A DNA stretch of 64,000 bases from positions 62,001-126,000 of the forward strand of contig NZ_NHSH01000057.1 in assembly GCF_016653315.1 (NCBI RefSeq). Reading direction: 5' to 3'. Made by a program: the position numbers and the translations under genes. Positions 62,157 through 64,000 of the stretch are shown one piece after another. Position 1 is the stretch's first letter. Each line of letters begins with the position of its first letter. This DNA comes from Halochromatium roseum. Lineage in GTDB: Bacteria; Pseudomonadota; Gammaproteobacteria; Chromatiales; Chromatiaceae. The notes beneath the pieces are model-generated. The model did not search any database. It saw only the letters and a program-made list of their open reading frames with translations, and was not told the origin of the DNA.

Positions 62157-62410
62157 CGATCTTTACCTCAATAACTTGGTTAATTTGCTTAGGTGGCTCC
62201 GGAACACCCTTTTCAAACCCTGAACAACGAATGTTCAGCGATAGATTGCTGGTACAAAGACCTCGCAAACCGAGCTTTCAGTGTTGATTTTCTGCTAAAC
62301 CCTATCGAGGTCAGGTGTTTGGGCGCTAGTGCTCGACCAGTTGTGTTCGCAGATCGGCATCCCATTTTAGGGTTGTCTAGACTTTGCACAATCATAAACG
62401 AGGCCGATCT

Positions 62411-62953
62411 ATGCGACTTCTGGCTCTACTCGCCGTATTAGGAGGCTTGACCATGACGACCAACGCGACTGCTAACTGCGGCCCAGCACTCGATTTCGAA
62501 CTGCGGCGTCTCGCGGGTGATGAATCCGTGAGGCTCTGCGATGCCTACCAAGGCAAAGTGGTGCTGATGGTCAATACCGCTAGCAAGTGTGGATTCACCG
62601 GTCAGTACGAGGGGCTCGAGGCACTCTACGACAAGTACAAGGAGCGCGGACTGGTGGTGCTGGGCTTCCCCTCCAATGACTTTGGCAACCAAGAACCCGG
62701 CAGCGAGGAGCAGATCCAGCAATTCTGCCGACTGACCTACTCGGTCGAGTTCCCGATGTTCGAGAAGATCCACGTCAAAAAAGGCAAGGCTGATCCGCTT
62801 TATCAGTACCTTGCAGCCCAAACTGGAGCCTACCCGAAATGGAATTTCTACAAGTATCTGATCGATCGGGATGGAAATGTTGTCGACTACTTCTCCAGTA
62901 TCACATCACCTGATAGCAAGAAGTTCATAGCGGCAATCGAGAAACTGCTCTAA
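62411..62953 (+). CDS. Glutathione peroxidase, exported
   Basis: 180-residue peroxidase with an N-terminal signal peptide (LLALLAVLGGLTMTTNATA) that most bacterial homologues lack, implying a periplasmic site. Catalytic Cys in VNTASKCGFTGQYEGLEALY, Gln/Trp partners in GFPSNDFGNQEPGS and YPKWNFYKYLID. Cys in place of selenocysteine. No clear ribosome binding site precedes the ATG at 62411; an in-frame start 27 bp upstream is possible. Confidence 0.92.
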   Translation: MRLLALLAVLGGLTMTTNATANCGPALDFELRRLAGDESVRLCDAYQGKVVLMVNTASKCGFTGQYEGLEALYDKYKERGLVVLGFPSNDFGNQEPGSEEQIQQFCRLTYSVEFPMFEKIHVKKGKADPLYQYLAAQTGAYPKWNFYKYLIDRDGNVVDYFSSITSPDSKKFIAAIEKLL

Positions 62954-63165
62954 GCAGTTGACCTGATCATGGCAGGATTCGATGCTCTGAGGGCGGCTCG
63001 AGACCTGGTCCGCAGCCGCCAGATGCTGGCACCCAATGATGCGAACTACCGCTGGCCTGACATTTCCTGCCTGAAGTGCATTCCCGGATTGCCCGATCGG
63101 ACAGAACCCCTGAAAATGGCGACCAGATCGACGGCACAGCCGTCAGCGTTAAGAGGTCGACCGCC

Positions 63166-64000
63166 TTGCCTAAGGCTCCCTATCATTCGGATGATCCTGA
63201 CCAGGCCTCGGCCGAAGGTCCGCCACCGCTGTTGCCTGAGGACTTCGGGCTAACCCCGGCCAGCTCACCCACGGATTCGCTCTCTGAGCTGGCTGAGGCC
63301 ATGCCAGGGATGCGCGTGCCGCCGCACAACCTACAGGCCGAACAGTCGTTGCTCGGCGCCCTGATGCTCGAGAACAGCGTCTGGGAGCAGGTTGCCGATA
63401 AGGTCCGCGAGACCGATTTCTACCGCCAAGAGCATCAGCTGATCTTCCGTGCGATTCATATCCTAGCCGAGCAGGATCAACCGTTCGACGTCATCACGTT
63501 GGCCGAGGCGCTTGAGAAGCGCAAGCTGCTCGATGACATGGGCGGAATGCAGTATCTGGCTGAGATCGATCGCAACACCGGCTCCGCCGCCAACGCCGCA
63601 CATTACGCGCGCATCGTCCGTTTCAACTCGGTCTTGCGCCAACTGATCCGAGCCGGTACCGGCATCGCCGATCTGGCGTTCGATACCAAGGGCCGCAGCG
63701 AGGCCGAGATCCTCGATGCCGCCGAGGCCAAGGTGTTCGAGATCGCCGAGCAGCTCACCCGCGGCGGCGGCTTCAAGTCGATCGAAGACCTGCTGACCAT
63801 CGCGGTCCACAAGATCGATGAACTCTATCATCGTGACGAACCCATCACCGGCCTGCCGACGGGGTTCATCGACTTCGACATGAAGACCTCCGGCCTCCAG
63901 CCCGCCGATCTGATCATCTGTGCCGGGCGGCCGTCGATGGGCAAGTGCCTAGAGGCCAGCAGTGAGGTCCTGCTTGCGGATGGTCGGGTCACAACCATCG
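63166..64000 (+). CDS. dnaB: Replicative DNA helicase DnaB, N-terminal part, interrupted by an intein (runs off the window)
   Basis: Ring helicase of the replisome. N-domain: RVPPHNLQAEQSLLGALMLE, FDVITLAEALEKRKLLDDMG, GGMQYLAEI; linker FKSIEDLLTIAVHKIDELYH; ATPase domain PITGLPTGFIDFDMKTSGLQ, then LIICAGRPSMGK. At the next residue, where DnaB has Thr (GKT), there is Cys followed by intein sequence. The start is taken as TTG at 63166, with AGAGG about 9 nt upstream; GTG 63076 and ATG 63301 are alternatives. The frame is open to the window's end. Confidence 0.93.
   Translation, partial: MPKAPYHSDDPDQASAEGPPPLLPEDFGLTPASSPTDSLSELAEAMPGMRVPPHNLQAEQSLLGALMLENSVWEQVADKVRETDFYRQEHQLIFRAIHILAEQDQPFDVITLAEALEKRKLLDDMGGMQYLAEIDRNTGSAANAAHYARIVRFNSVLRQLIRAGTGIADLAFDTKGRSEAEILDAAEAKVFEIAEQLTRGGGFKSIEDLLTIAVHKIDELYHRDEPITGLPTGFIDFDMKTSGLQPADLIICAGRPSMGKCLEASSEVLLADGRVTTI
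63946..64000 (+). other. N-terminal end of a DnaB intein (truncated by the window)
   Basis: Immediately after GRPSMGK the protein reads CLEASSEVLLADGRVTTI. This is intein block A: Cys1, then a Thr/Ser-x-Val core and DGR, closely like the start of the Rhodothermus DnaB intein inserted at the same site in the Walker A motif. Only the first 18 residues are in view; whether it has a homing endonuclease domain or is a mini-intein cannot be seen. Confidence 0.9.

Follow-up and report, generated by a model that had tools for sequence, protein, structure and literature searches.

A predicted class 1 intein with a LAGLIDADG domain in the P-loop of the DnaB helicase of a probable purple sulfur bacterium, and its occurrence among relatives

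Introduction

The Ssp, Npu and Rma DnaB inteins lie at the H4 site of their host protein. They share the DnaB host and class 1 membership with the intein described here, as does M. smegmatis DnaBi2, which is placed at the H4 site, called site a, in PMC6195587. The H4 inteins that we read differ from ours in their insertion, at RESG/SIEQ or RE/SG(A/S)IEQ (slashes outside brackets mark the junctions), and in lacking a Cys at position 4 of block G. A preliminary description of the present locus had cited Rhodothermus as a precedent for insertion at the P-loop. This is probably wrong: the Rhodothermus intein probably lies at the H4 site (SG/SIEQ), and such a junction was found in the H4 inteins read in our loci.

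The same protein and the same P-loop location are occupied by DnaBi1 (site b) of M. smegmatis and M. leprae, described in PMC6195587 as a mini-intein of class 3 that lacks an endonuclease, has Ser+1 and uses Cys118 of block F as nucleophile; in contrast, the intein reported here has Cys1, an Asp in block F, Thr+1 and an endonuclease domain. The P-loop DnaB inteins of cyanobacteria (e.g. Nostoc) and of Chromatiaceae-like bacteria have the same GK/C...HN/T junction and the same domain order as ours, with a best-segment identity to it of 38–81% (80 loci kept of 217), and differ in length, from 328 to 550 residues in 100 unique inteins and 288 in locus L134. The P-loop junction was read directly in cyanobacterial loci, in agreement with the preliminary description, which had listed cyanobacteria among the bearers of inteins at this DnaB site.

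DnaB inteins are also reported, in PMC4853749, from the giant sulfur gammaproteobacteria Thiomargarita and Maribeggiatoa BOGUAY; what these share with our case is a DnaB intein in a sulfur-oxidising gammaproteobacterium. Since they are in print, a DnaB intein in a sulfur gammaproteobacterium is not new as a general observation, and what is added here is one member and a better picture of the occurrence of the P-loop form. Within the literature collection searched, no paper was found on inteins in Halorhodospira halophila or in purple sulfur bacteria, and Chromatiaceae were absent among the matches listed for the intein and DnaB literature.

Results

The window analysed is a stretch of 64 kb (G000:C57:62001-126000), and the contig extends beyond it. 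On the forward strand, nt 63925–63945 of the window code for GRPSMGK, residues 1–7 of the Walker A motif, and nt 63946–63948 for Cys1 of an intein inserted immediately 3' of the lysine codon, exactly where the preliminary description had placed them. Of the intein, only its initial 55 bases (63946–64000), with block A (CLEASSEVLLADGRVTTI), lie in the window, which they close. The remainder was read from locus L002 (G000:C57:124001-142000; L002 position + 62000 = window position), where the whole intein, 472 aa from Cys1 to HN, occupies L002:1946-3361 (+), ending at G000:C57:127361, and is followed by the C-extein TSFAMN... of a normal DnaB. The dnaB frame is open over 1,002 codons, from a GTG at window position 63076 through intein and C-extein to the stop at L002:4084, and Pfam DnaB_C matches it in two stretches (E 9.9e-104), the host sequences flanking the intein, LIICAGRPSMGK and TSFAMNIAENVA, each supplying one half of a normal Walker A motif. 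In this frame the N-extein spans nt 63076–63945 (+). Because the Pfam DnaB N-terminal domain begins only at residue 82, the true start is more likely one of the ATG codons at 63301 or 63310, right before RVPPHNLQAEQS. A glutathione-peroxidase-like gene lies directly upstream of dnaB (62384–62953), and alanine-racemase-like and RadA-like genes lie downstream, all three named by eye.

The intein was recognised by Pfam Intein_splicing over residues 8–472 (E 1.5e-21) and, above cut-offs, by NCBIfam TIGR01445 and TIGR01443, covering the N- and C-terminal intein splicing regions. Beside block A, it has blocks B (TATH, 68–71), F (VYDLTIPETHNFVAND, with Asp454 within VYDL) and G (CVHN), the latter followed by Thr+1. 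Thus the downstream blocks ending in HN, the Thr and the normal DnaB sequence that the preliminary description expected of an intein interrupting the motif after GRPSMGK were all found on the contig past the window. The block names follow general usage and, in part, PMC5222942. Among 106 inteins extracted from the loci (six overlapping copies of our own locus having been skipped, and L026, whose contig ends inside the intein, dropped), 100 were unique and six duplicates, and Cys1, T68, H71, D454, H471 and N472 were invariant in the alignment of the 100.

PMC5222942 defines class 1 inteins by a first residue that is Ser, Thr or Cys, and PMC10663303 names TxxH in block B and Asp in block F as class 1 features. 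The first residue here is Cys, blocks B and F have TATH and Asp454, and the C-terminal His-Asn precedes a residue of the Ser/Thr/Cys set (CVHN/TSFAMN). Class 3, the type of DnaBi1, requires a Trp at B:12, a Cys at F:4 and the absence of an N-terminal nucleophile (PMC5222942); this assignment was rejected, Phe being found two residues after H71 (B:10), Asp at F:4 and Cys at position 1. A sequence search of the PDB ranked the Ssp DnaB intein 1mi8 highest, together with its variants, the closest structures being Ssp and Npu splicing domains (1mi8, 6frg, 4o1r). A model was predicted for the intein of Lamprobacter, 88% identical to ours over 472 aligned codons (516 residues, 40 sequences; mean pLDDT 91.8, pTM 0.89). 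Its best structural matches in the PDB were the endonuclease-bearing inteins TliVMA (7qss, E 1.2e-18) and PI-PfuI (1dq3), and its splicing part matched the Ssp DnaB and Mtu RecA inteins, mostly at 1.1–1.7 Å over about 100 columns. Judged from sequence, the element looks like a working, mobile, self-splicing class 1 intein.

Of the two endonuclease types that had been suggested for the interior of the intein, LAGLIDADG or HNH, the former was found (Pfam LAGLIDADG_3, residues 259–359, E 1e-16), with the two expected helices, LLGCLIGDG (112–120) and LFLNRLFATDG (262–272). Their acidic residues, D119 and D271, are both kept here, and Asp occupies the two positions in 96/100 and 94/100 aligned inteins; endonuclease activity is predicted from these conserved residues. 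An HTH_3 match at residues 184–219 (17.2 bits) stayed under the Pfam cut-off of 23 bits.

Some match to the intein was present in 49 of the 194 genomes of the family, our own included. A strong best match (E < 1e-40, a line set after the table had been inspected; next best 5.6e-26) was obtained in 27, and both P-loop junctions were read in 26 of these, while the remaining one (G047, L026) has the N-terminal junction and a contig that ends inside the intein. With the exteins as query, the match ran uninterrupted across the junction in 155/194 genomes (150 rows counted by hand plus five from a second extein search); two genomes gave fragments short of the junction and eight no match. As most of the sampled dnaB genes of the family are without it, the intein is dispensable to the family as a group. 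Two further genomes have, close to the P-loop junction, an insert that divides the dnaB match and that our intein hardly matches (G019:C44:9367-10881 and G053:C3:2905-4527); these inserts are possibly other inteins. Within the genus the intein was found in six of eight genomes, being absent from G015 and from G137, where the P-loop is empty and an intein sits at H4 instead.

Among 369 genomes sampled evenly from the class, 18 had a match, and the loci of the 12 stronger ones were read; at least nine have the P-loop junction, including G000 and G008 of the family, two have an H4 intein only, and one locus lacks a P-loop frame. In a draw of 398 genomes of the phylum, our own alone passed the stricter limit of 1e-30. 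P-loop inteins are thus rare across the class sample (at least 9/369) and not rare in the family (27/194), so that the earlier statement that they are uncommon in gammaproteobacteria holds for the class, with the six weaker matches set apart, and fails for the family and for the genus (6/8).

Related loci, 80 of which were kept of 217 confirmed, came among others from Lamprobacter modestohalophilus, Halochromatium, Allochromatium warmingii and many cyanobacteria, and also from Gemmatimonadota, Acidobacteriota, Verrucomicrobiota, Rubrobacter and Aliidiomarina. From the names of these relatives, the organism is a probable purple sulfur bacterium. L. modestohalophilus and G119, which belongs to our genus, have identical inteins. 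The junctions GK/C and HN/T were found in 100/100 unique extracted inteins, which argues, on the sequences compared, that this intein family is bound to the P-loop site; weaker matches were at H4 or elsewhere.

In quick trees of 46 of the 100 unique inteins, 23 inteins of the family form one clade, and L117–L119 join Aliidiomarina in a second P-loop lineage. The latter is a divergent intein type with the same junction, starting with Cys-Ile or Cys-Val and with block G position 4 occupied by Leu, Ile or Val (L117, L118, L119, L108, L129, L130, L131).

H4 inteins were also read in the retrieved loci (L018, L021, L037, L040, L041, L110, L120, L121, L124, L125 and others), 27 in all, counting those whose end lies inside the locus. 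They have two insertion points, two residues apart: those at RE/SG(A/S)IEQ mostly end in WLADGIVSHN and those at RESG/SIEQ mostly in a form of NFVANNIIVHN. By their sequence, they seem to belong to two distinct intein families whose sites almost coincide. A P-loop and an H4 intein occur together in one DnaB gene in L012, L018, L019, L022, L024, L037, L043, L047, L120, L121, L129 and L130. Outside the window, our genome has a second intein in a dCTP deaminase gene (G000:C70:109239-110369; locus L027:1123-2850), a 575-aa ORF with Pfam DCD in two stretches and Intein_splicing.

Comparison with seven relatives, one of which (L023) was too diverged for dS and gave no value, returned a dN/dS of 0.14–0.20 for the intein in 6/7 comparisons, splicing and endonuclease parts being alike, and of 0.008–0.12 for the exteins. 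The intein therefore evolves faster than its host exteins, yet under purifying selection. This bears on an unlikely reading of the element as decaying, i.e. still splicing, with a dead endonuclease, and inherited vertically. Such a history would agree with the trees, since the main groups of the 23-intein clade match those of the extein tree, with several forks that differ or stay unsettled, and with the shorter forms in the genus (L017, 364 residues; L011, 433; L015, 441) and in the family (L120–L123, 328–345 residues). Against it speak the two acidic residues kept in our intein, a dN/dS of 0.13–0.27 for the endonuclease part in 6/7 comparisons and the synonymous divergence from Lamprobacter, which amounts to 0.33 for the intein as against 0.50 for the exteins (codon bootstrap P 0.0065) and weakly hints at some recent exchange; the second pair tested, L010, is without such sign (P 0.14). 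Nine relatives whose site is empty agree with our dnaB at 46–52 of the 60 bases around the junction. The trees would fit an intein long present in the family and often lost, with two or more separate entries.

Discussion

Eight cysteines are present in the intein, and only two are kept throughout, Cys1 (100/100) and C469, at block G position 4 and four residues from the intein end (95/100); C108 comes next, with 72/100. This pattern makes it possible to think of a conditional redox or metal switch, in which Cys1 would pair with C469, or both would bind zinc, so that DnaB maturation would be held up until conditions are again reducing, a reading that we regard as quite improbable. Besides Cys1, C469 is the only nearly invariant cysteine, and the penultimate His follows it by two residues; in a beta strand the two side chains would face the same way. 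None of the 27 H4 inteins, 24 of them in genes that also have a P-loop intein, has Cys at this position. PMC6195587 and PMC7360933 report inhibition of the M. smegmatis P-loop intein DnaBi1 by oxidants and zinc via its catalytic Cys, and PMC4031507 reports disulfides with the active-site Cys in other inteins. However, DnaBi1 is of class 3 (PMC6195587) and uses block F Cys118 with the non-conserved Cys48, a chemistry that is not transferable to our intein. The five exceptions at C469 are all Leu, four from the second P-loop lineage and one from L105 (Bacillota), and C469 tracks a lineage rather than the site. It is also conserved in oxygenic cyanobacteria, so that nothing ties it to a lifestyle or boundary of oxygen and sulfide, and the link between a redox switch and these two that the preliminary description raised is unsupported. 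By sequence, C469 marks a lineage and could be a candidate partner of Cys1; it may also merely pack.

Another possible disulfide partner of Cys1, an N-extein Cys at position −9, for which P. abyssi MoaA (PMC10663303) offers a comparison, was discarded: it is present in all six P-loop-intein genomes of the genus and absent in G015, but it is found also in G137, with its empty P-loop, and is not tied to the intein. The broadest form of the switch, in which the large class 1 P-loop DnaB lineage of cyanobacteria, Chromatiaceae-like bacteria and other phyla would keep the block G Cys as partner of Cys1 in a zinc site or a reversible disulfide, halting helicase maturation and replication under oxidative or metal stress, is more doubtful still.

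The dependence of the organism on the intein turns on the number of its DnaB proteins. The genome is a draft of 88 contigs, with 100% estimated completeness and 1.55% contamination, and a DnaB_C search of the whole assembly returned the two halves of the interrupted dnaB and two matches below the cut-off, with no second DnaB found. Two candidates were examined and rejected: a RadA-like gene (C57:129466; named by eye), with a weak DnaB_C match, and a KaiC-like ATPase (C87:30858), which scores 197 bits with KaiC vs 40.8 with DnaB_C, the latter value exceeding the cut-off of 27 bits when the protein is scanned whole. A second dnaB hidden in an assembly gap is possible though unlikely, because of the estimated completeness. 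That our dnaB is dead or mis-assembled, with the working copy elsewhere, is extremely improbable, nothing having been found in its favour, and is dismissed by the open frame with both junctions exact, the intact C-extein, the draft assembly in which one DnaB was found, and the same arrangement in the separate assemblies of relatives. With a single DnaB found in the assembly, the helicase is expected to rely on splicing for its function, and replication very probably needs it, as the preliminary description had proposed.

We are highly confident in a class 1 LAGLIDADG intein located in the P-loop of the one DnaB found, between its Lys and Thr, and predicted to be spliced out of one precursor. 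A protein of about 920–1,000 residues would be translated from dnaB, in which Cys1 would attack the Lys-Cys bond, the N-extein would be transferred to Thr+1 and the terminal Asn would cyclise, so that an ordinary Walker A motif, GRPSMGK-TSFAMN, would be restored in the joined exteins. In dnaB alleles that lack the intein, the endonuclease domain would make a cut at the P-loop, by which the element would be copied into them. We infer all three of splicing, inactivity of the unspliced helicase and endonuclease cutting.

P-loop DnaB inteins are frequent in one family though rare in the class sample, and a genus with both intein-bearing and intein-free dnaB would be useful for tests of homing and of cost and benefit. 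The conserved block G cysteine makes the idea of a redox switch precisely and cheaply testable. For the organisms themselves, these data indicate that a replicative helicase in this group probably depends on protein splicing.
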